From IMG/VR virus record IMGVR_UViG_3300022200_000139, positions 1-38,640 of that record: a stretch of 38,640 nt of DNA. One strand, given 5' to 3'. Shown here piece by piece: positions 217-30,647 of the stretch. The translations under genes were made by a program, and so were the position numbers. The first letter of the stretch is position 1. The number at the start of each line of letters is the position of its first letter. Source of the DNA: a virus. The notes beneath the pieces were generated by a model, which saw nothing but the letters and a program-made list of their open reading frames with translations, searched no databases and was not told where the DNA came from.

Positions 217-957
217 TTATTTATCGCCGTATATTGAAAGAACTTCGCTGACCACAGGATGTCTTTCAATATCGTTATAATCGAATTCTACAAATTTTAT
301 ATATTTAGCAAATTTGTAAGAATTATATAGCTTATTAAAATCTAACAAACCGTTTTGCGCTTCTTTTTTGTCAGTTTGTTGTATGTCGCCAGTAACAGCC
401 ATATAACTACCCTCACCAATGCGAGTTAGCAGCATTTTCATTTGATTAGGTGTAGCATTCTGCATCTCATCCGCAATAATATATGAATTTTTAAAGGTAC
501 GACCTCGCATGAAAGCCAATGGTGATATTTCAATAACCATTTCATCAATCATTTCCTTAATTTGTTTAGGAGAATAGTATTCTTGCATAACATCAAAAAT
601 AGGCCGTGTCCATGGTTCCATTTTACTGTTTAAGTCGCCGGGTAAAAAGCCGTGTCGTTCATCATCCACTCCCACTGCTGGTCTAGTGACCACTATTTTT
701 TTTATACTACCTTCTTTGAGTGCTTTTAATGCTGCTAGCACAGCAAGCATGGTTTTGCCTGTGCCCGCAGGACCTACACCAAACACAATAATGTTATCTG
801 GATCTAATAATTTTTCTATATATGTTTCTTGGTTTAAATTTCTTGGAACAAGTAGTACCTTGTTTTTGCGTTGTATATATTCACTGATGTTTATAATATT
901 TTCATTGCGATGATTATGATATGTGTCTTTAAACTTATTCTTGTGCCTGCGACTCAT
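217..957 (-). CDS. phoH: PhoH-like P-loop ATPase
   Basis: The 246-residue protein is the PhoH-type P-loop NTPase common in marine phages. Walker A GPAGTGKT is at residues 62-69, the region TRPAVGVDDERHGFLPGDL at about 91-109 is typical of PhoH, and the Walker B-like DEMQNAT is at 163-169 followed by the sensor-like TGDIQQTD at 189-196. In bacteria the family is phosphate-starvation associated and has RNA helicase/ATPase features; its exact job in phages is not settled. The start is supported by AGGAGG directly upstream. A 14-codon ORF with its own strong ribosome site ends on top of this one, so translation may be coupled. The basic, His/Asn-rich N-terminus (1-30) is an extension of unknown function. 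Confidence 0.95.
   Translation of the reverse strand: MSRRHKNKFKDTYHNHRNENIINISEYIQRKNKVLLVPRNLNQETYIEKLLDPDNIIVFGVGPAGTGKTMLAVLAALKALKEGSIKKIVVTRPAVGVDDERHGFLPGDLNSKMEPWTRPIFDVMQEYYSPKQIKEMIDEMVIEISPLAFMRGRTFKNSYIIADEMQNATPNQMKMLLTRIGEGSYMAVTGDIQQTDKKEAQNGLLDFNKLYNSYKFAKYIKFVEFDYNDIERHPVVSEVLSIYGDK
218..224 (-). promoter_or_regulatory. Late-promoter-like ATAAATA motif
   Basis: On the minus strand this reads ATAAATA, the core of the T4 late promoter (TATAAATA). It overlaps the phoH stop codon and points at the partial gene that starts at 182, giving a leader of about 30 nt that includes an AGGAGA ribosome site. A 14-bp perfect palindrome, ATAAACATGTTTAT (199-212), sits in that leader. Confidence 0.5.
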
Positions 958-1065: not shown

Positions 1066-1842
1066 TTATTTGAATTTTTTTTGGGCAAATTCGTATAAAA
1101 ATTTGTTTACAAAATCTGTATGAGCACTTTCACAGGGATGTGTAGCATAAAACGGATAACCACCATCTGCTGCCCACTTATAAAAACCAGGAAAGTGATA
1201 AAAATTACTCTGGTCCAGGCTTTCAAATAGGTTTTCTATACTAGCGTCCCAGGGCACATTTTTATTAAAAATACACTCATCTACGTAGGTGAAAATATAT
1301 TTTTTGTTGCGCTGCTTTAACCAATCCTGTAAATAAACTATTTCTTTAAGAGTGCTGTATGTTTCCCAGTATTTACTGTCGCCTATATGTTTATAATATA
1401 CTTCACTGAAGTCTGCTAGTCCTGTGCTTTGCGCTACAAGTTGACTTTTCTTGTAATGATTAAAGATATTATCTTTAAAATTTTGAAAGGCTTCTAGTAT
1501 AACACTTTGATTTCGTTCATGTGTCCAGGGACTAATACTGTACCAGGGACTGTCTCGTTCCAGGGTATCATAGTTAAACCTAAACTCAAACCGTGTGGGG
1601 AAACTCCACATAACCACTACTACATGCTCTATTCCTCGCCGATCCAGAGAACTTACGGTGTTGATAACGTTTCTAGCAATAGCAGGATTACTCCAACCTC
1701 CCTGAGCCACACACACGTATTTCATTTCTAGTTTGTGTGCTAGATATGCGCTCCAGGTTAGTTCGCTAGGGGTTTGAGGCGTACAGTCAGCAAGTTCGTT
1801 ACCGTAGGTAAAACTGTCCCCGCCTGCTACAAGTATTGTCAT
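1066..1842 (-). CDS. SGNH/GDSL-like hydrolase family protein
   Basis: The 258-residue protein starts MTILVAGGDSFTYG, the GDS(L) nucleophile block with Ser10. A block III-like GGWSNPAIARN follows at about residues 58-68, and the C-terminal HPCESAH places a catalytic-type His at 241, with Glu238 where Asp is usual (ExxH for DxxH). The SGNH family covers esterases and lipases, including sugar O-deacetylases; in phages such proteins often modify or remove O-acetyl groups on glycans. No signal peptide is visible. The start follows a CTAAATA late motif by six bases with no Shine-Dalgarno, so the mRNA may be nearly leaderless. The substrate cannot be inferred. Confidence 0.6.
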   Translation of the reverse strand: MTILVAGGDSFTYGNELADCTPQTPSELTWSAYLAHKLEMKYVCVAQGGWSNPAIARNVINTVSSLDRRGIEHVVVVMWSFPTRFEFRFNYDTLERDSPWYSISPWTHERNQSVILEAFQNFKDNIFNHYKKSQLVAQSTGLADFSEVYYKHIGDSKYWETYSTLKEIVYLQDWLKQRNKKYIFTYVDECIFNKNVPWDASIENLFESLDQSNFYHFPGFYKWAADGGYPFYATHPCESAHTDFVNKFLYEFAQKKFK

Positions 1843-1883: not shown

Positions 1884-1890
1884 CTAAATA
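1884..1890 (+). promoter_or_regulatory. Late-promoter-like CTAAATA upstream of prkA
   Basis: CTAAATA lies 20 bases upstream of the prkA ATG. It is followed by an AAAGGA ribosome site, so this transcript would carry a short conventional leader. TATTATAT overlapping 1891-1898 could alternatively act as a -10. Confidence 0.45.
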
Positions 1891-1910: not shown

Positions 1911-3860
1911 ATGCCAACTTCTATTTCAAACTTATTTAAGAAAAACTATGATAGTAGAGTTAGTAAAACCTATACCATAGACGAATATCTAGATTTATGT
2001 AAAAAAGATCATCTAGCATATGCCACAGCGGCAGAACGTATGTTGGCTGCTATTGGGGAACCTAAGCTTGTTGACACAAGTAAGGATCCCAGACTTAGTC
2101 GTATATTTTACAATAGAACAGTACGGGTATATGAAAATTTTCGAGAATTCTATGGCATGGAAGATGTGGTAGAACGCATTGTAGGTTATTTTCGCCATGC
2201 TGCCCAGGGCCTGGAAGAGCGCAAGCAAATACTTTATCTACTGGGACCCGTGGGAGGTGGCAAGAGCAGCCTTGCTGAAAAGCTAAAAGAACTCATGGAA
2301 AAATTACCCATCTATGTACTAGCAACAGAAGATGGTGAGCTGAGTCCTGTATTTGAAAGTCCACTAGGACTATTTGCCAATGAAAATTACTATGACGTTA
2401 TGCTGGACAAATATGGTATCGAATCCAGATACCTAACCAGTATCATTAGTCCGTGGGCCATAAAGAGATTACGAGAATACGAAGGTGACATCGGTCGTTT
2501 CCGTGTTATTAGTATTATACCCAGCAAACTAGAACAGATTGCTGTAATGAAAACAGAGCCCGGCGACGAGAACAATCAGGATATTAGCACACTAGTAGGC
2601 AAGGTAGATATTCGTAAACTAGAACACTTTAGCCAGAATGACACAGACGCCTACAGTTATAGTGGTGGGTTATGCCGTGCTAACCAAGGTTTGTTAGAAT
2701 TCGTGGAAATGTTTAAGGCGCCCATTAAAGTTCTACACCCACTGCTAACTGCTACACAGGAAGGCAACTATGTGGGCACAGAAGCTATTAGTGCCATCCC
2801 TTTCCAGGGTATCATACTGGCACACAGCAACGAATCAGAGTGGCAGACATTTAAAAACAACAAAAACAATGAAGCATTCTTGGATCGTATTAGTATTGTT
2901 AAAGTTCCTTACTGCTTGAGGGTAGATGAGGAAAAAGGCATATATGAAAAAATGATCCGCGCAAGCGGACTACACAACGCAGCCTGCGCTCCACAAACAG
3001 TGGAAATGTTAGCTCAGTTCAGCGTACTCACCAGGCTCAAGGAGCATGAAAATAGCACACTATTCAGCAAGCTCAGAGTTTATAACGGCGAGAACATCAG
3101 AGAGCAGGATCCCAAAGCTAAGACTATTCAGGAGTACAGGGATGTGGCCGGTGTTGACGAAGGCATGGAAGGTATCAGCACACGGTTTGCTTATAAAATA
3201 CTAAGTCAGACTTTTAACTTTACCCCCGAAGAAATAGCTGCTGATCCTGTTCATATGATGTTTGTGTTAGAAAATGCTATTAAACGCGAGCAGTTTGGAC
3301 AGGAACGAGAAGAACGTTATCTCGATTTTATTAAAAGTGATCTAGCAAACAAATACGCGGAGTTTCTAGGCAACGAAATTCAAAAAGCTTACCTAGAAAG
3401 CTATAGCGAATATGGTCAGAACTTGTTTGATCGTTATGTAGAGTATGCTGATGCTTGGATACAGGACCAAGAATTCAAGGATCCTGATACTGGCTTGCTT
3501 ATGGACAGATCACAACTCAATGACGAACTAGAAAAAATTGAAAAACCCGCTGGTATTGCCAATCCCAAGGACTTTAGAAATGAGATTGTAAACTTCTGTT
3601 TACGAGCAAGAGCTAAACCCGAAAACGGTGGTAATAATCCAATGTGGACAAGTTATGCTGTGCTTAGAGACGTTATTGAAAAGAAAATGTTTAGCCAAGT
3701 CGAAGACTTGCTCCCTGTAATTAGTTTTGAGGGTAAAAAAGACAAAGAACTCGAGAAAAAACACAATGACTTTATAGCCAGAATGGAAGATCGTGGATAC
3801 ACGCCACGACAAATTCGTAGGCTAGTTGAATGGTATATGCGTATCAGAAAGTCAAACTAA
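1911..3860 (+). CDS. prkA: PrkA-type serine protein kinase (YeaG-like)
   Basis: At 649 residues this matches the length of bacterial PrkA/YeaG (about 640). Walker A GPVGGGKS lies at residues 112-119 inside the N-terminal AAA domain. The following region with SPLGLF, the long central AAA+ part, and the C-terminal segment ending RQIRRLVEWYMRIR are typical of the family. Bacterial PrkA is reported as a Ser/Thr kinase or AAA+ regulator in starvation and sporulation responses. AAAGGA upstream of the ATG supports the start. It is the first gene of prkA-yeaH-spoVR, the same trio that is functionally linked in bacteria. Finding all three intact in a phage suggests reprogramming of host stress physiology, which is inference. 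Confidence 0.92.
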   Translation: MPTSISNLFKKNYDSRVSKTYTIDEYLDLCKKDHLAYATAAERMLAAIGEPKLVDTSKDPRLSRIFYNRTVRVYENFREFYGMEDVVERIVGYFRHAAQGLEERKQILYLLGPVGGGKSSLAEKLKELMEKLPIYVLATEDGELSPVFESPLGLFANENYYDVMLDKYGIESRYLTSIISPWAIKRLREYEGDIGRFRVISIIPSKLEQIAVMKTEPGDENNQDISTLVGKVDIRKLEHFSQNDTDAYSYSGGLCRANQGLLEFVEMFKAPIKVLHPLLTATQEGNYVGTEAISAIPFQGIILAHSNESEWQTFKNNKNNEAFLDRISIVKVPYCLRVDEEKGIYEKMIRASGLHNAACAPQTVEMLAQFSVLTRLKEHENSTLFSKLRVYNGENIREQDPKAKTIQEYRDVAGVDEGMEGISTRFAYKILSQTFNFTPEEIAADPVHMMFVLENAIKREQFGQEREERYLDFIKSDLANKYAEFLGNEIQKAYLESYSEYGQNLFDRYVEYADAWIQDQEFKDPDTGLLMDRSQLNDELEKIEKPAGIANPKDFRNEIVNFCLRARAKPENGGNNPMWTSYAVLRDVIEKKMFSQVEDLLPVISFEGKKDKELEKKHNDFIARMEDRGYTPRQIRRLVEWYMRIRKSN

Positions 3861-3870
3861 GGTTAAGTCA

Positions 3871-5145
3871 ATGTCTACAGTAATTGATCGTAGACTTAAT
3901 CCTAGGGATAAAACTATAAAGAACAGACAAAAGTTTGTACAGCGTAGTCGCGACCAAATAAAACGAGCTGTTAAAGAAAGCATAGACTCAGGTAATATCG
4001 CTGATATAGAAAATGATAAAGCTCGCATTCGTGTTAAAGGTATCAACGAACCTGAGTTTACTATAGATCCAAAAACCGGAGATAAAAAATATGTACTGCC
4101 CGGCAACAAAAAACACGTTGTTGGCGATAGGCAGGATAAACCCAGTGAGGATGGTGGATCCAGTGGCAAGCAGGGCGGGCTAGGACGCAGCGAAGATGAA
4201 TTTGAGTTCGTGTTAAACAGGGACGAATACCTAGATTTTATATTCCAAGACCTCGAACTACCAAATCTTGTTAAAAGAAAAATTAAAGACGTAATTAAAC
4301 ATAGACTACGCAGGGCCGGATTTACCAATCAAGGTTCTCCTAATCAGCTTGACATAACAAGAAGTTTAAAAAACAGCATAGGTAGACGCATAGGTCTGCG
4401 TAGACCAAAAAATCAAGAAATTGAAGAATTAGAACAAGAACTAGCAGACTGCGACAACGAACTTCGCAAGCAGGAAATACAGGAACTTTTAACATATCTA
4501 CGTAAGAGACAAATTACGGTCCCATGGTTAGATCCCGTGGATGTTAGATATAGAGCATTTGTAAGTCACCCTGAGCCTACTACAAAAGCAGTTATGTTCT
4601 GCATCATGGATGTTAGTGCCAGCATGGGGCAGCGTGAAAAAGATTTGGCAAAGCGTTTCTTTTTCTTACTACATATGTTTTTAATCCGCAAATATGAAAA
4701 GGTAGATATTATCTTTATTAGACATCATGAAGAAGCCAAAGAAGTTGATGAGGAAGAATTTTTTACTAGCAGAGAAAGTGGAGGAACAGTTGTAAGCAGT
4801 GCCCTGTGTTTAACAAAGGAAATAATTAAAAAGCGTTATAATTTAGATGAATGGAATGTTTACGTAAGCCAAGCCAGTGATGGAGATAACTATGCGGCTG
4901 ATCAAGATCGGTGTAAACAAGAAATGGAGCAGCTATTACCCTTATCACAGTATTTTGCTTATATAGAAATTGGTGGTTACAATGTTGATTATATGGGCGT
5001 ACATCATCATCATAGTTTAAGTCAACTTTGGTGGACCTACAAAGAACTAACCAGATCTTACCCACAGTTAAATATTAAAGAGATCGACGAAGTGCCGGAT
5101 ATCTGGAAGGTGTTCAAAGAACTTTTTAAGAAAGACGAAGCGTAA
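3871..5145 (+). CDS. yeaH: YeaH/UPF0229 family vWA-domain protein
   Basis: The 424-residue protein matches E. coli YeaH (about 427). The open frame extends back to 3826, but the ATG at 3871 follows the prkA stop, has AAGG upstream, and gives the family-typical start STVIDRRLNPRDK. A Gly-rich linker lies at about residues 94-105. The C-terminal half is a von Willebrand A-like domain with the MIDAS sequence DVSASMG at 247-253 and later SGGTVVSS and SDGDN. In bacteria YeaH is encoded with the PrkA kinase and acts in the same starvation response; its biochemical role is unclear. It overlaps spoVR by one base (TAATG), implying translational coupling. Confidence 0.9.
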   Translation: MSTVIDRRLNPRDKTIKNRQKFVQRSRDQIKRAVKESIDSGNIADIENDKARIRVKGINEPEFTIDPKTGDKKYVLPGNKKHVVGDRQDKPSEDGGSSGKQGGLGRSEDEFEFVLNRDEYLDFIFQDLELPNLVKRKIKDVIKHRLRRAGFTNQGSPNQLDITRSLKNSIGRRIGLRRPKNQEIEELEQELADCDNELRKQEIQELLTYLRKRQITVPWLDPVDVRYRAFVSHPEPTTKAVMFCIMDVSASMGQREKDLAKRFFFLLHMFLIRKYEKVDIIFIRHHEEAKEVDEEEFFTSRESGGTVVSSALCLTKEIIKKRYNLDEWNVYVSQASDGDNYAADQDRCKQEMEQLLPLSQYFAYIEIGGYNVDYMGVHHHHSLSQLWWTYKELTRSYPQLNIKEIDEVPDIWKVFKELFKKDEA

Positions 5146-6599
5146 TGGCAAAATTGTTATACGATGATAATGAATGGACCTTTGACAAGTTACACGCAGC
5201 AGACGAAGCAATTCGTGAAATTGCTCTTGAAGAATTAAAGCTTGACGTATATCCTAATCAAATTGAAATTATTGGCAGTGACCAGATGCTGGATGCTTAT
5301 AGTAGCCATGGGCTACCATTGATGTATAATCACTGGAGTTTTGGTAAACATTTCCTAAGTCAGGCATACAACTACAGGAAGGGTTATAGCGGACTTGCCT
5401 ATGAAATTGTAATTAACAGCAATCCTTGTATTAGCTATCTCATGGAAGAGAATAGCATGACCATGCAGACACTTGTTATTGCTCATGCTGCTTATGGACA
5501 TAATCACTTTTTTAAAAATAACTATTTGTTTCGTCAATGGACGGACGCAGAAGGAATAGTAGATTACCTAAACTTTGCTAAAAACTACATAAAGAAGTGC
5601 GAAGAAAAACACGGCACACAACTAGTAGAGGAAACACTGGATGCTTGTCACGCTATCATGGACTATGGCATTGACAAGTATCGTAGACCCAGTAAACTTA
5701 ACAAAGAAAAAGAACTTGAACAACAAATTGCCAGGGAAGAATATGTTCAACAACAAGCGAACCAGCTATGGTCAACCTTGCCTAAACGTAAAAAGAAAGT
5801 TGTAGAAGTTAAAGAAGAAAGGTTTCCCCGAGATCCGCAGGAAAATATCCTATACTTCATAGAAAAAAACTCACCTAGTTTAAAGAGTTGGCAAAGGGAG
5901 ATTGTGAGAATAGTTCGTAAGATAAGCCAGTATTTCTATCCACAGCGCCAAACAAAACTAATGAACGAAGGTTGGGCTAGTTTTACGCACTATTATATTA
6001 TGAACAGACTCTGGGAAAAGGGCTTAATCAGCGACGGGCATTATATTGAGTTTATTCACAGCCACAGCGGCGTACTAAGGCAACTGGATCATGACCACAA
6101 ATACTATAATGGCTTTAATCCCTATGCCCTGGGCTTTGATATGTTTACGGATATACGCAGGATTTGCTCTGAACCCACAGCAGAAGATCTAGAATATTTT
6201 CCACATATAGCAGGCAAAAACTGGTTGGAAACATGCTTAGATGCTGTAATTAATTATAGGGACGAAAGTTTTATAACACAATTTTTAAGCCCACGTATAA
6301 TGCGTAAATGGCGTTTATTTGAAGTAAGTGACCAAGAAATGGACAGTTATGTTGAAGTCACTGGTATACAAAATAAAACAGGCTATGCTAAAATAAAAGA
6401 AAGTTTAAGTTATCAATATAGTATAGGAAAGTTCCAACCAAACATACAAATAGTCGACGCTAATCTCAAGGGCAGTAGAGAATTAATTTTATCCTATACC
6501 AAGCATAATAAACAACGTTTGGGCGGTTCTCGCGATCGCGTATTAGAATATATTAAATACCTTTGGGGCTATGAAGTGTCTATCAAAGAAAATGAATAA
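5145..6599 (+). CDS. spoVR: SpoVR/YcgB family protein
   Basis: At 484 residues this is close to bacterial SpoVR/YcgB (about 470-510). Family features include LPLMYNHWSFGKHF near residues 54-67, EINSNPCISYLMEEN-like text near 88-102, AHAAYGHNHFFKNN at about 113-126 and NEGWASFTHYYIMNRLW at about 275-291. SpoVR is needed for spore cortex formation in Bacillus, and YcgB co-functions with YeaG/YeaH in enterobacteria. Here all three genes are collinear with one-base coupling at the yeaH boundary. The repeated His/Glu motifs suggest metal binding, but the activity is unknown. The gene looks intact. Confidence 0.92.
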   Translation: MAKLLYDDNEWTFDKLHAADEAIREIALEELKLDVYPNQIEIIGSDQMLDAYSSHGLPLMYNHWSFGKHFLSQAYNYRKGYSGLAYEIVINSNPCISYLMEENSMTMQTLVIAHAAYGHNHFFKNNYLFRQWTDAEGIVDYLNFAKNYIKKCEEKHGTQLVEETLDACHAIMDYGIDKYRRPSKLNKEKELEQQIAREEYVQQQANQLWSTLPKRKKKVVEVKEERFPRDPQENILYFIEKNSPSLKSWQREIVRIVRKISQYFYPQRQTKLMNEGWASFTHYYIMNRLWEKGLISDGHYIEFIHSHSGVLRQLDHDHKYYNGFNPYALGFDMFTDIRRICSEPTAEDLEYFPHIAGKNWLETCLDAVINYRDESFITQFLSPRIMRKWRLFEVSDQEMDSYVEVTGIQNKTGYAKIKESLSYQYSIGKFQPNIQIVDANLKGSRELILSYTKHNKQRLGGSRDRVLEYIKYLWGYEVSIKENE

Positions 6600-6623: not shown

Positions 6624-7181
6624 ATGGATATTAAAGAAATTGTTGAAAATACTAAAAAAGTTTACATGAGCGAGGCTAGCCTTGAATTGCTCATGGACTT
6701 TGAACGGGTTCTTGATGAAGTAGATTTATATGCTTTCAAGAACTGGAAAAAAGGCGAATTAGTCGAAGGTCCAATAAAACACAGACACTGGGTCGAGTGT
6801 ACGTTTATGTATCCAAATCGTCTAATGCCGGACCCAGATGGTGGTAAAAGACTGCTGGGCTACAACGTTATTGTTGAATACAAAAAAGACAAACTTGTAG
6901 TACCAGTTAAAGTTCAAAGTTACAGTGACTTTAGACCAGGCACTAAGAAACCAAAACTCAAAGAAGATCCTGTGTGGTTGGTCAAACTTAAAATGCCAGT
7001 TGAATTAGTCAAAGACGTAGTTGAAGGATTTATCGAACTTGAAGGTAAGGACATAGACTTGTCAGATCTTGACAATGCTTATGACCAAGGCATCAATGAT
7101 GTAAGTAACTCATCGGCTGGACCGGCAGCACAACCCCAAGAGCAACAACCCCAAGAGCAACAAGCCCAAGGAACAATCTAA
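6624..7181 (+). CDS. Conserved-type phage hypothetical protein with Q-rich tail
   Basis: The 185-residue protein has a globular N-terminal part (1-155) with HRHWVECTFMYPNRLMPDPDGG and a region rich in alternating charged and beta-prone residues, then a low-complexity tail PAAQPQEQQPQEQQAQGT encoded by a 15-bp tandem repeat. I do not recognise a family. It is preceded by a leaderless-type late motif, which suggests late expression and possibly a virion role. The next gene starts three bases after the stop with GTG, so the two are probably co-translated. Confidence 0.75.
   Translation: MDIKEIVENTKKVYMSEASLELLMDFERVLDEVDLYAFKNWKKGELVEGPIKHRHWVECTFMYPNRLMPDPDGGKRLLGYNVIVEYKKDKLVVPVKVQSYSDFRPGTKKPKLKEDPVWLVKLKMPVELVKDVVEGFIELEGKDIDLSDLDNAYDQGINDVSNSSAGPAAQPQEQQPQEQQAQGTI
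7131..7170 (+). repeat. 15-bp tandem repeat encoding PQEQQ units
   Basis: The unit CAACCCCAAGAGCAA occurs at 7131-7145 and again at 7146-7160, with a degenerate third copy to about 7170. It lies in frame in the C-terminal tail of the upstream gene, so copy-number changes would alter tail length without frameshift. Confidence 0.8.
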
Positions 7182-7183
7182 CA

Positions 7184-7732
7184 GTGGATACATTAAATGA
7201 AAGTTTAGATCCAAATGATCTACAAGACAGGGTAAAACCCACGGTTCATTTTGACGAATACAGTCCTAAAATGGGCACGGATGATTCTGTTATTGTAGCA
7301 AGCTTTAGCGTAATGGGACAGCAGGCAGCATTTGATCTTGAAAATTTTTTAGAAAAAGGATATCCGTGGATACTAGATGCTGAAACCAGTGCCGGTGAAA
7401 TAAAATCTAATCACTGGCTGGTATTTGTTGAAGCGGAGCGTAGGACCAGTTTTCCAGAAAACTTTATCGAACTTATAAAAGATCTGGAGAATCTCACAGG
7501 GATAAAACTTGAATCATGGAATATGCTCTACTATCTCGGCGGTCGAAAAGATCCCACATATTCTCTAACAAAAAATAACATAGCAGCTCATGTACCACTT
7601 AGTCCAAAGAAGTACAGAGATATAAGAAACTCAAACGCAATGCTAGAAAGCATGCTTAACATCGCAAGAGTTCCACGACGCCAAGGAGACATACATGGAC
7701 TTACAAAAGCTAAGACAAGACCTAGCCAATGA
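7184..7732 (+). CDS. Hypothetical phage protein
   Basis: The 182-residue protein starts at GTG three bases after the preceding stop; AAGGA lies 11 bases upstream. Recognisable text is VIVASFSVMGQQAAFDLENFLEKGYPWILDAETS followed by a segment beginning KSNHWLVFVEAERR, suggesting an alpha/beta domain, and a C-terminus rich in basic residues. I do not recognise a family. Its last 38 bases overlap the lysozyme start in another frame. Residues 4-6 (LNE, followed by S) match the T4 prohead-protease pattern, but a single match means little. Confidence 0.7.
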   Translation: MDTLNESLDPNDLQDRVKPTVHFDEYSPKMGTDDSVIVASFSVMGQQAAFDLENFLEKGYPWILDAETSAGEIKSNHWLVFVEAERRTSFPENFIELIKDLENLTGIKLESWNMLYYLGGRKDPTYSLTKNNIAAHVPLSPKKYRDIRNSNAMLESMLNIARVPRRQGDIHGLTKAKTRPSQ

Positions 7733-16464: not shown

Positions 16465-17676
16465 ATGATAACATGGTTATTTGATAACCGTAATCAGTTT
16501 GGGTTTGTGCCTAATCTAGTAAAGGATTTTTCTCTACGAGCAGGCACCGATGCCTGGCATGATCTATGCATTAAAGCCCCATACAGTTACGAGTTTAGGT
16601 TCTTAAAATACTGTATGCTCGACAAGGTTCCATTCCGATGTCAATTAACGCGGTCTGAAACCTGGGAACATCCTGCTTATTATCCCGTAAACCTAAACTT
16701 TTTTGATCTTGACATTGATTTTTTTGAACTGATGGAGCCACATAGTCTGGAACTATTGCGGCAAGGAAAATTTAAATTTTTGATGTATTACAGCGAAGGC
16801 GATGACGTTGACAGTACAGGCATTGATGCGAGGATTAATGAATTATTAGTCAAGCATAATATTAGTAAAGAAAATTTTGTTTTTGTAACCGCTAATAGAT
16901 TATTAGATAAACGAGGACCTTACGTTTACTTCCCCGACGACGAACTGTACTACAGACTACTACACATCAATAAAAAAGATTGGATTAAATCTGTGAGCTT
17001 AGGTAAAAGAAAACACACCTTTACCTGTTTAAATCGCGCAGATAAAATATGGCGTAGGATTTATGCTAGTAAATTATACAGTTTAGGATTATTATCAAAG
17101 GCTCAATTTAGTTACACCGGTTATCAATACGAAACTCCTGCTGTAAACGAAGAAAGCACAAAGACCTGGGAGTCATTGGATACGAACTTAATTGAAAACC
17201 TCAGCGCCTTTGAACTAGGAATTCCCTATAAATGTGACAATCTCAGTGACAAGGACCATAACGATCATAAACTGATTTATGGTCCACACTTCATGGATAG
17301 TTATTGGCAATTTGTAGTTGAAACACACTTTGACCAGCATACCTGTTTTATCACTGAAAAAACTTTTAAATGCATATTAAATTTACAGCCCTTTGTTATT
17401 GTTGGTAATTACTATACATTAAAAACACTGCATAATCTAGGTTATAAAACATTTAATAATGTGATCAACGAAACCTACGATTTATTATTAAACCCAGTTG
17501 AAAGAATGCAGGAATTGTTTAGTCTAAGTTATAGTATTTGTCAACGTGGAGATGCTGATCAAATTCATATTATGAAAATGATAAAATCTGTGTTAGAATA
17601 TAATCAACAGCATTTCCTTGCTCCAAAGACACAGAGAATAATGAGCCTGATTAAATTTTTGGATTATACAAAATGA
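16465..17676 (+). CDS. Glycosyltransferase-like protein
   Basis: The 403-residue protein has no strong catalytic motif. The C-terminal part, FITEKTFKCILNLQPFVIVGN then LKTLHNLGYKTF, resembles the nucleotide-sugar-binding end of GT-B-like transferases (for example fucosyltransferase-type enzymes) and similar uncharacterised marine phage proteins. A central TCLNRADKIWRRIYASKLY is distinctive. It overlaps the next gene, a GT-A-like transferase, by four bases (ATGA), so sugar modification of virion or host surface is the likely theme. The assignment is tentative. Confidence 0.5.
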   Translation: MITWLFDNRNQFGFVPNLVKDFSLRAGTDAWHDLCIKAPYSYEFRFLKYCMLDKVPFRCQLTRSETWEHPAYYPVNLNFFDLDIDFFELMEPHSLELLRQGKFKFLMYYSEGDDVDSTGIDARINELLVKHNISKENFVFVTANRLLDKRGPYVYFPDDELYYRLLHINKKDWIKSVSLGKRKHTFTCLNRADKIWRRIYASKLYSLGLLSKAQFSYTGYQYETPAVNEESTKTWESLDTNLIENLSAFELGIPYKCDNLSDKDHNDHKLIYGPHFMDSYWQFVVETHFDQHTCFITEKTFKCILNLQPFVIVGNYYTLKTLHNLGYKTFNNVINETYDLLLNPVERMQELFSLSYSICQRGDADQIHIMKMIKSVLEYNQQHFLAPKTQRIMSLIKFLDYTK

Positions 17677-18305
17677 TACATTTTTGCACACCCTGCTACG
17701 GCGGACAGCTCAGTGAAGCAACCTTTAAAGGCTATCTAGATTGGACGGTTTTCGCTATGCAAAACAAAATACCGTTTACTGTAGACACACTGACTAATGA
17801 AAGTAATATAAATCGAGGCAGGAACAGTTTAGCGGCCAAGTTCCTGGCTGGTAAGGGCACTCATCTAATGTTCATCGACAGCGACATAAAGTGGTTCCCC
17901 CAACAGATATTACAACTACTTGCTAGCAACAAAGATCTTGTGGGAGGTATATATCCTAAAAAATCCTATCCAATTGAATATGTTGTTAACAAGATACATA
18001 ACGGCGAAATTGAAAATAACTTAATTGAAGTAGGTATGGTTGGCACTGGATTTTTGTTAATACGGCGCACGGTGTTTGAACAAATGATCGAAATGGGAGC
18101 AAAAAAATACACAGACAGCATAGGTCTAGGCAACGAATATGATAATTACACCTATGATTTTTTTAATTGTACAATAGACAGTCAAGACAGATATCTAACA
18201 GAAGACTGGAGTTTCTGCCGACGCTGGCGGCAATTAGGTGGTAAAGTCTGGGCTGAAACCAGCATTAAGCTGGGGCATGTTGGTTATCACAGATTTGAAG
18301 AATAG
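17673..18305 (+). CDS. GT-A-fold glycosyltransferase (GT2-like)
   Basis: The 210-residue protein opens MIHFCTPCYGGQLSEATF and contains RGRNSLAAKFL and the metal-binding DxD-type motif in MFIDSDIKW (about residues 66-74). A later TEDWSFCRRWRQLGGKVW provides the acidic ED(W)xFC block seen in GT2 enzymes. It should transfer a sugar from a nucleotide donor. Marine myoviruses carry related genes thought to modify virion or host glycans. It is coupled to the upstream transferase by ATGA and looks complete. Confidence 0.75.
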   Translation: MIHFCTPCYGGQLSEATFKGYLDWTVFAMQNKIPFTVDTLTNESNINRGRNSLAAKFLAGKGTHLMFIDSDIKWFPQQILQLLASNKDLVGGIYPKKSYPIEYVVNKIHNGEIENNLIEVGMVGTGFLLIRRTVFEQMIEMGAKKYTDSIGLGNEYDNYTYDFFNCTIDSQDRYLTEDWSFCRRWRQLGGKVWAETSIKLGHVGYHRFEE

Positions 18306-27995: not shown

Positions 27996-30647
27996 ATGTC
28001 TTATGTAGACGCTTTCTTTGACAGAGATCACGACAAAATCTACATTGTAGAACGTATATCGGGACGCAGGGAATACAGAGAATTTCCTGCTAACTATGTA
28101 TTCTACTACAATGATCCGCGAGGTAAGTTTCGCACGATCTATGGTAATCCTGTAAATCGTTTTGCTACACGCAACGGCAAAGAATTCCATAAAGAAGTAA
28201 AAATGCATGGCAGCAAAGGAATTTGGGAAAGTGATATCAATCCCATATTCCGGTGCCTAGCTGAAAATTATCTAGGAGTTGATGCCCCTAAACTTCAAAC
28301 CGCGTTCTTTGACATTGAAGTTGACTTTGATCCGGAACGAGGATATTCAACTCCTGAAGATCCATTTAATGCAATTACAGCAATAAGCGTATATCTAGGC
28401 TGGTTAAACCAATTGGTAACACTGGCAATTCCTCCACGCAGCATGAGCATCGAAACTGCTAGAGAGACTGTGGCAGGTTTTGATAATACATTTTTGTTTG
28501 ATCGAGAAGAAGACCTGCTGGTAACTTTTTTAGATCTCATTGAAGATGCTGATATTTTAAGTGGTTGGAACTCAGAAGGCTACGATATTCCCTATACCAT
28601 ACAGAGAATTACCCGTGTACTCAGCAAAGATGATACAAGACGTTTCTGCTTATGGGGCCAATATCCCAAACAGCGAACATTTGAAAGATTTGGCGCACAA
28701 AATATTACGTTTGATTTAATTGGTAGACAACATCTAGATTACATGCAACTGTATCGTAAGTATACCTATCACGAAATGCACAGTTATAGTTTAGATGCTA
28801 TCGGTGAATATGAACTCAATGAACGCAAGGTTGCCTACGAAGGCACATTAGACCAATTGTATAATCAAGATTTTTATACATTTATTGATTACAACAGACA
28901 AGATACCATGCTGTTACACAAATTGGATGCTAAACTAAAATTTATTGATCTAGCCAACGAACTTGCTCACGCTAACACTGTGCTATTACCAACCACCATG
29001 GGCGCTGTAGCTGTTACAGAACAGGCCATTATCAACGAAGCGCACGAGAAAGGATTGGTTGTTCCTAATCGTAGAAATAGAGACGGTGAACCCACCACAG
29101 CCGCAGGTGCTTACGTTGCTTATCCAAAGAAAGGCCTGCACGAATGGATTGGCAGCATTGACTTAAACAGTCTATATCCCAGCGTTATCCGCGCGTTAAA
29201 CATGGCGCCGGAAACCATAGTCGGTCAGCTGAGACCAGTTATAACCGACCATGCCGTAAAAACTAAAATGGAAAAAGGAAGCTTTGCAGAAGCCTGGGAA
29301 GGCGAATTTGGAAGTAAAGAATATCAGGCTGTAATGAACATGGAGACTGGCACAGAAATTACCATTGACTGGGAGTCAGGTGACAGTGATACACTAAGCG
29401 CAGCAGATACATGGCGATTAATCTACGACAGCAATAAACCATGGATGCTCAGTGCCAATGGCACTATCATAACCTATGAAAAGAAGGGCGTGGTGCCGGG
29501 TTTGTTGGAACGATGGTATGCTGAACGCAAAGAGCTACAAGCAAAGATGCGAGAAAGCGAAGGCGAACAACGTGCTTTCTGGGACAAGCGACAGCTGGTT
29601 AAAAAAATTAACTTGAATAGTTTATATGGCGCTATTCTTAATCCAGGTTGTAGGTTCTTTGATCATCGTATTGGACAAAGCACTACACTCACCGGACGTT
29701 GTATTGCCAAACACATGGCAGCAAAAGTAAATGAACTCCTCACAGAAAAATATGACCATACTGGTGATTGTGTGATCTACGGCGATACAGATTCAGTTTA
29801 TTTTAGTGCGTGGCCGGTTATTCATGAGCAAGTTGAACAAAGCAGAATGTCCTGGGGTAAAGAAGAATGTATTAGACTCTATGACCAGATCGGCGAAGCG
29901 GTTAATGAAACCTTTGCTGCATTTATGGAACGTGCTTTCCATTGTCCGCGGAAGAATGGCGAAATCATTGCAGCAGCAAGAGAAATTGTTGCTACCAAAG
30001 GTCTTTATATTACCAAGAAACGGTATGCTGCACTGGTCATTGACACAGAAGGGTATCGAAGCGACACAGATGGCAAGCCCGGCAAAGTAAAAGCCATGGG
30101 CTTGGACCTAAAGCGCAGTGATACACCAAAAGTTATGCAGGATTTCCTCAGCGAAATATTGCTGGATGTGCTCACAGGCAAGAAGCAAGATCACATAATT
30201 GAACGCATCAAAGAATTCAAGCACGAATTTAAAAATAGGCCAGGCTGGGAAAAGGGTACTCCTAAACGTGTAAATAATTTGACCACATATACCGCCAAAG
30301 AAGATCGCGAAGGCAAGACAAACATGCCCGGGCATGTTAGAGCAGCAATGAATTGGAATTATCTGCGTAAACTTAACGGGGATAACTATAGCATGCAGAT
30401 AGTTGATGGTATGAAAACCATTGTATGTAAACTAAAAAACAATCCATTAGGCTATACCAGTGTTGGTTATCCCACAGACGAAACACATCTTCCTCGTTGG
30501 TTTAAAGAACTACCTTTTGATGATGACGCAATGGAAGATACTATTGTAGACCAAAAGATCGGTAATCTTCTCGAAGTTCTAGATTGGAACCTCAAAGAAA
30601 AAACGCAGACAAAAAACACGTTTGACAGTTTATTTACTTTTGAGTAA
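27996..30647 (+). CDS. 43: Family B DNA polymerase (gp43-like)
   Basis: The 883-residue protein is close to T4 gp43 (898). The 3'-5' exonuclease motifs are FFDIEVDFD (Asp106, Glu108), GWNSEGYDIPY (190-200) and YNRQDT (299-304). Polymerase motifs are SIDLNSLYPSVIR (motif A, 387-399), KKINLNSLYGA (motif B, 536-546) and YGDTDS (motif C, 595-600), with KKRYAAL downstream. It replicates the phage genome with the sliding clamp encoded nearby. The ATG lies nine bases after the dsbA stop with no Shine-Dalgarno; TAATAT 12-7 bases before the ATG could even act as a leaderless -10. The gene is intact. Confidence 0.97.
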   Translation: MSYVDAFFDRDHDKIYIVERISGRREYREFPANYVFYYNDPRGKFRTIYGNPVNRFATRNGKEFHKEVKMHGSKGIWESDINPIFRCLAENYLGVDAPKLQTAFFDIEVDFDPERGYSTPEDPFNAITAISVYLGWLNQLVTLAIPPRSMSIETARETVAGFDNTFLFDREEDLLVTFLDLIEDADILSGWNSEGYDIPYTIQRITRVLSKDDTRRFCLWGQYPKQRTFERFGAQNITFDLIGRQHLDYMQLYRKYTYHEMHSYSLDAIGEYELNERKVAYEGTLDQLYNQDFYTFIDYNRQDTMLLHKLDAKLKFIDLANELAHANTVLLPTTMGAVAVTEQAIINEAHEKGLVVPNRRNRDGEPTTAAGAYVAYPKKGLHEWIGSIDLNSLYPSVIRALNMAPETIVGQLRPVITDHAVKTKMEKGSFAEAWEGEFGSKEYQAVMNMETGTEITIDWESGDSDTLSAADTWRLIYDSNKPWMLSANGTIITYEKKGVVPGLLERWYAERKELQAKMRESEGEQRAFWDKRQLVKKINLNSLYGAILNPGCRFFDHRIGQSTTLTGRCIAKHMAAKVNELLTEKYDHTGDCVIYGDTDSVYFSAWPVIHEQVEQSRMSWGKEECIRLYDQIGEAVNETFAAFMERAFHCPRKNGEIIAAAREIVATKGLYITKKRYAALVIDTEGYRSDTDGKPGKVKAMGLDLKRSDTPKVMQDFLSEILLDVLTGKKQDHIIERIKEFKHEFKNRPGWEKGTPKRVNNLTTYTAKEDREGKTNMPGHVRAAMNWNYLRKLNGDNYSMQIVDGMKTIVCKLKNNPLGYTSVGYPTDETHLPRWFKELPFDDDAMEDTIVDQKIGNLLEVLDWNLKEKTQTKNTFDSLFTFE

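Follow-up and report, generated by a model that had tools for sequence, protein, structure and literature searches.

Three genes encoding PrkA, YeaH and SpoVR, known together from a bacterial starvation-linked operon, form an old, maintained cassette of large phages, as found here in a linear viral sequence of 38,640 bases (the window, which comprises a whole IMG/VR record and is probably a fragment) and in its viral relatives. Phage genes acting on host physiology are usually described as single and recently borrowed. Here, a whole three-gene machine has been kept together under selection, with apparent phage late control and its own phage ancestry. The trio offers a genetic handle on phage reproduction in starved cells and on the actual roles of PrkA, YeaH and SpoVR. 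Some of these genes were already visible in individual phages; the new elements are the near-obligate cassette, its phage ancestry and its putative late-type control, as well as a tentative zincin-like fold predicted for SpoVR.

The initial annotation of the region as an intact, collinear and coupled trio spanning positions 1911-6599 is correct. Pfam matches cover the whole length of each protein (AAA_PrkA, 1.7e-170, and the PrkA C-terminal domain, 3.6e-69; DUF444 in YeaH, 7.2e-147; SpoVR, 1.4e-164, and SpoVR_C, 8.5e-17). YeaH most likely starts at ATG 3871, as opposed to TTG 3826 of the mechanical ORF list, 10 nt after the PrkA stop, and the YeaH stop and the SpoVR ATG overlap by one base (TAATG, 5143-5147). 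The Walker A motif of PrkA is GPVGGGKS (residues 112-119), K429 is the counterpart of K426 in Escherichia coli YeaG, and a solved relative is available (PDB 9xip, 2.2e-56). YeaH, the predicted structure of which is a von Willebrand A (VWA) domain (Foldseek E 1.4e-7), possesses a complete MIDAS (D247, S249, S251, T306, D337). None of the 86-89 viral sequences compared deviates at Walker A K118, at the YeaG K426 counterpart or at any of the five MIDAS residues. Moreover, dN/dS is 0.01-0.13 in unsaturated viral pairs, which points to strong purifying selection on the trio in the pairs where it is measurable; comparisons of the window with its relatives are saturated, and the estimate comes from other viral pairs. 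The intact reading frames, invariant residues and low dN/dS rule out broken or decoy genes; broken genes in relatives were a concern that the initial annotation had raised.

Table 1. Coordinates of the trio and of adjacent features in the window
Feature	Position	Strand	Basis and remarks
phoH	217..957	-	Pfam/PHROGs; synteny with Phosso, Atu_ph07, G003 and G034; backbone left of the cassette
CTAAATA, T4-late-like promoter element	1884..1890	+	About 27 nt before the PrkA start; sequence, conserved in relatives
PrkA (YeaG-type), AAA+ ATPase and C-terminal PrkA domain, 649 aa	1911..3860	+	Pfam; residue conservation
YeaH/YhbH (DUF444), 424 aa, predicted von Willebrand A domain	3871..5145	+	Pfam; alignments; predicted structure and fold search
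SpoVR, 484 aa, tentative gluzincin-like predicted fold	5145..6599	+	Pfam; alignment; predicted structure and VIA-align
Virion structural protein (phrog_12928)	6624..7181	+	PHROGs, synteny; backbone right of the cassette; AATAAATA just upstream
Virion structural protein (phrog_13138)	7184..7732	+	PHROGs, synteny; phage backbone

With respect to SpoVR, no sequence match was detected in the PDB copy searched, and Foldseek with the predicted model (pLDDT 84.8) returned no confident match (best E 1.0), an absence that is uninformative. A second look with VIA-align ranked zincin-type metallopeptidases at the top (Z up to 12.7), and among the matches listed, those down to Z 4.2 are zincin-type proteins; Z values under about 13 between mostly helical models might reflect only a common arrangement. 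Given that the scores lie below this warning level, the zincin-like (gluzincin-like) fold of SpoVR is tentatively suggested as a lead only. In the alignment, H114, H119, E275, H282, E302 and H307 are invariant, and H114, H119 and E275 could constitute a candidate metal site. In place of the HExxH signature, the alignment shows HAxxGH, with Ala at the position of the catalytic glutamate, and the SpoVR proteins of Thermomicrobium roseum and phage phiLo have Val at this position (HVxxH). A tentative zincin-like fold with a possible metal site but lacking the catalytic glutamate is a concrete biochemical lead for this protein family.

By its gene content, the window is assigned to an Atu_ph07/Phosso-like jumbo phage, of which it would be a fragment with backbone genes on both sides of the trio. 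The DNA polymerase (27996-30647) is closest to that of Sinorhizobium phage Phosso (51% identity; 469 kb genome) and is 46% identical to that of Agrobacterium phage Atu_ph07 (490 kb). Both phages are collinear with the window with respect to phoH, the two virion proteins, DnaJ, a ClpB-like ATPase, DNA polymerase and a clamp-type gene, so that a related polymerase and a collinear backbone jointly support the assignment. Neither Phosso nor Atu_ph07 has the trio at the corresponding site, and no PrkA match was found anywhere in either record. The backbone is shared by the phage contigs nearest to the window, G003 (polymerase identity of about 66%) and G034 (about 57%), in which the trio is located about 50-90 kb from the backbone site that it adjoins in the window; the gap between phoH and the virion gene ORF in G034 is only about 130 bases long and represents the uninterrupted site. 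In the window, G003 and G034, phoH and the virion genes have opposite orientations, which is not the case in Phosso and Atu_ph07. Lysozyme and spanin genes also neighbor the window trio (PHROGs), and an independent contig (L124) contains the same downstream junction, with a SpoVR gene (100% identity) followed by the virion, lysozyme and spanin genes. This repeated junction, together with the two-sided synteny, rules out a host-phage chimera, one of the possibilities that the initial annotation had named as fatal to its reading.

The initial annotation further linked the trio with the phoH gene next door. The gene is present, but its proximity is weak evidence of joint function because phoH belongs to the backbone common to phages that lack the trio at this site. 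PhoH-trio proximity does recur outside the phage family of the window: in another viral clade, phoH lies downstream of SpoVR (L295:15120-15884, and also L153, L180, L185, L190 and L194). Between phoH and the trio, the window contains a 258-aa ORF (1066-1842, minus strand) with no Pfam or PHROG match, the start of which, GDSFTYG, suggests an SGNH/GDSL hydrolase.

To survey the trio, profile scans of viral contigs were employed, which yielded 202, 269 and 239 confirmed stretches for SpoVR, PrkA and YeaH, respectively, with the best 80 of each kept; combined with a first scan, these gave 234 IMG/VR loci in 100 contig clusters. Within this set of best matches, the full trio is present in one order and on one strand in 89 of the 100 clusters, whereas the other 11 are partial, nearly all being cut by contig ends, with L031 (without SpoVR) and L179 (without YeaH) as possible real exceptions. 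PrkA matches were detected in 16 of 50,697 phage records, including 11 Thermus phages. The block is rare among phage records, yet near-obligate as a three-gene cassette where present, and its recurrence across the contig clusters argues for an old, maintained phage cassette as opposed to stray host DNA. The relatives are not host contigs: of 50 large records, 13 exceeded the cut-off of a terminase model and only 3 that of ABC_tran, so the relatives are viral in bulk. The Pfam models for gp23 and tail sheath produced few matches on these contigs.

Comparison with host copies separates the phage genes from the cellular ones. Viral and cellular sequences are almost cleanly separated in two PrkA trees (201 and 83 rows, with 5 and 4 label changes, respectively), and the window PrkA belongs to a viral-only clade of 15 rows (support 100; 10 sampled rows, 100/99). 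All three window proteins are closer to viral than to cellular homologs (best virus versus best cell: PrkA, 85% and 72%; YeaH, 65% and 48%; SpoVR, 73% and 55%). A recently captured host gene is thus ruled out, the window PrkA being neither nested among nor near-identical to host genes. When three short contigs located inside or beside host clades (L136, L138 and L184) are removed, two label changes suffice in the PrkA tree, and the two main cellular clades, one around alphaproteobacteria and the other around gammaproteobacteria, lie among paraphyletic viral sequences. With the same contigs left out, the AU test, run under one model, rejected a single origin of all viral PrkA (p = 0.0016), with mostly Pseudomonadota on the cellular side and with groups named after the tree was seen; the tree is unrooted, with the same cellular bias, and gives no direction for ancient transfers. 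Of the three excluded contigs, L136, with a GC content of 62% and the trio near an integrase, looks like host DNA, whereas L138 (with a Rad52-type gene) and L184 (with a homing endonuclease) may represent real separate captures. In two temperate-phage records, L035 (MN688132) and L136, yeaG-yeaH or the trio seems to belong to flanking host DNA that adjoins prophage genes.

The evolutionary distances of the three genes are correlated across 44 viruses (Mantel r 0.68-0.81), which indicates a common history. Furthermore, the PrkA of phage G026 is 84% identical to that of the window whereas its polymerase is only 26% identical; together with the different location of the trio in G003 and G034, this implies that the cassette changes its genome position and is transferred among phages that are only distantly related.

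The initial annotation also placed a late-type motif ahead of the trio, and the comparative data bear this out. In the clade of the window, TAAATA occurs upstream of PrkA in 10 of 14 viruses (1.8 expected) but in 0 of 14 before YeaH and 0 of 13 before SpoVR. Across 83 viruses, it lies within 50 nt of the PrkA start in 36 (10.9 expected), mostly as CTAAATA or ATAAATA; after dereplication at 85% identity, the count is 21 of 48 viral PrkA genes (4.8 expected; highest value in 2000 shuffles, 13). The motif falls 20-50 nt before the start in 35 of the 43 viral genes that have it within 100 nt. None of 93 cellular PrkA genes has the motif, although this is a weak control because these genes are GC-rich. 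The motif is both degenerate and short. It is missing from the 50 nt ahead of about half of the dereplicated viral PrkA genes, and the exact sequence TATAAATA was found nowhere in the window. An upstream promoter motif of the T4 late type is thus a feature of PrkA only, and its presence there, along with its absence before YeaH and SpoVR, points to a single operon with late-type control; by sequence, the motif appears phage-late-like rather than starvation-type. The related jumbo phage Atu_ph07 has a gene for a late sigma factor of the T4 kind (PMC6102473), and no late sigma gene was found on the 38.6-kb fragment. A literature search for temporal data on phage YS40 returned nothing relevant.

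The closest counterpart of the phage trio is the prkA/yeaG-yeaH/yhbH-spoVR operon of Pseudomonadota, which has the same families, order, strand and key residues, and the same gene order is found in T. roseum. Unlike the bacterial operon, the phage trio forms a clade apart from the sampled host genes, is preceded by a late-like motif and has a mobile genome position. In layout, the trio resembles machines such as RavA-ViaA, NorQ-NorD, CbbQ-CbbO and magnesium chelatase I/D/H, in which an AAA+ motor and a VWA/MIDAS adaptor are combined with a further partner, whereas PrkA and SpoVR are families of their own. Among phages, Thermus phages YS40, TMA, phiLo and Lalka carry PrkA-like kinases and YeaH-like proteins as the window does, and phiLo and Lalka also have a SpoVR-like protein; however, their PrkA is only 25-28% identical to that of the window and represents a separate lineage, and in phiLo SpoVR is in the middle. 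The uncultured huge phages LR756502, LR745206 and LR756504 carry the whole trio, albeit unannotated and with PrkA (60-63%) from another viral clade; in LR756502, unlike the window, SpoVR is far from PrkA-YeaH. In the isolated Ralstonia jumbo phage RsoM2USA, ORF28 is annotated as SpoVR and ORF30 as PrkA, a likeness at the level of annotation; in the available part of the report these are separate annotations without an operon-level interpretation (PMC8504454). In an oxygen minimum zone, spoVR has been described as exceeding all other viral 'sporulation' genes in abundance (PMC8940887), and our literature search found no paper that treats the phage trio as one system.

As for function, the initial annotation proposed that the module keeps the host productive, which finds no support in the work on E. 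coli, where YeaG and YeaH have been characterized as a metabolic brake with a quiescing effect on cells under nitrogen starvation (PMC10954441) and mutants lacking yeaG or yeaH regain growth faster (PMC4664914). Given this quiescing activity, we tentatively favor, at somewhat less than an even chance, a host-quieting or host-preserving role for a phage cassette under late control. Under this proposal, the trio would be a phage-adapted copy of the bacterial machine that large phages would inherit and exchange as one cassette, driven by the phage's own late, T4-type promoter. PrkA would form an AAA+ ATPase ring with YeaH as its von Willebrand/MIDAS adaptor, and SpoVR would be a metal-site effector or a partner remodeled by the PrkA motor; the physical complex, late expression and a braking or host-preserving effect in infected cells are our inferences. 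Under such a starvation-type brake, a cell short of resources or slow in production would stay viable and quiet while the phage completes a long late phase. The K426A substitution in YeaG has been described as catalytically deleterious (PMC10954441), and one study of Bacillus anthracis PrkA reported negligible kinase and protease activity in vitro (PMC13001217). The brake phenotype is documented for two of the genes, both in a single bacterium, and might not hold for the phage. A bolder version of the proposal, rather unlikely as a whole, is that large phages retain and exchange the complete AAA+/MIDAS/zincin-like machine as a dedicated late module, the viral lineages of which match the host lineages in depth, and that SpoVR would be a catalytically altered effector with a metallopeptidase fold, remodeled by PrkA-YeaH so that starved infected cells become quiescent yet stay productive.

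The virion or end-of-infection role that the initial annotation offered as the alternative under late timing stands as a rival, and the late control on which it was predicated is better supported than the productive-state claim. An unlikely scenario, in our estimate, is that the late trio remodels a virion, lysis or cell-wall component in the phage's own end-game: the late-like motif, the adjoining virion, lysozyme and spanin genes and the requirement of SpoVR for bacterial spore cortex formation, as cited in PMC12456014, are in line with such a role, but these neighbors belong to the shared backbone, from which the trio is distant in the closest phages, and the genes next to the trio vary among viral lineages. 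Quite improbably, the phage proteins could mix with host PrkA-YeaH-SpoVR subunits or compete for their targets, freeing the host from quiescence. About a quarter of 200 sampled Pseudomonadota genomes have a true PrkA, and the faster recovery of the E. coli mutants shows that removal of the brake helps growth to restart (PMC4664914); however, a decoy need not retain the ATPase, MIDAS and K426-equivalent residues, all of which are invariant in viruses, nor would it require three genes in one operon. It is more doubtful still that the trio manages translation at the late stage, with RNA or ribosomes as its binding partners: SpoVR of Bacillus subtilis crosslinks to RNA in vivo (PMC12456014), and a full elongation factor G gene directly follows SpoVR in one viral group (L214:15549-17645), yet RNA binding is known from one distant bacterium only and the EF-G adjacency is confined to this small group. 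Passive cargo, functionless in the phage and stemming either from recent capture of a host operon or from a chimeric assembly, has next to no chance: a few cases have this appearance (the record of Enterobacter phage LAU1 begins with yeaG-yeaH, and L136 has the features noted above), but for the window this explanation is already contradicted by the two-sided backbone and the repeated junction, in addition to the deep viral clades in the PrkA trees and the dN/dS far below 1 in other viral pairs. A defense system was considered and rejected, the only PADLOC match being a weak one of PrkA to IetA (0.0027).

Other genes recur next to the trio in particular viral groups. In about 24 viral contig clusters, a gene for a phrog_1574 protein precedes PrkA at a distance of about 64 nt (e.g., L139:5867-6709), and a member of this family is present in the window away from the trio (17673-18305). 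In 14 viral clusters, SpoVR is directly followed by a gene for a bacterial Fe(2+) trafficking protein (PF04362; e.g., L152:11616-11897). Elsewhere in the window, a 1140-aa phage protein (18808-22230) has a complete Cu/Zn superoxide dismutase domain alongside DUF5661 and a cytidylyltransferase-like domain.
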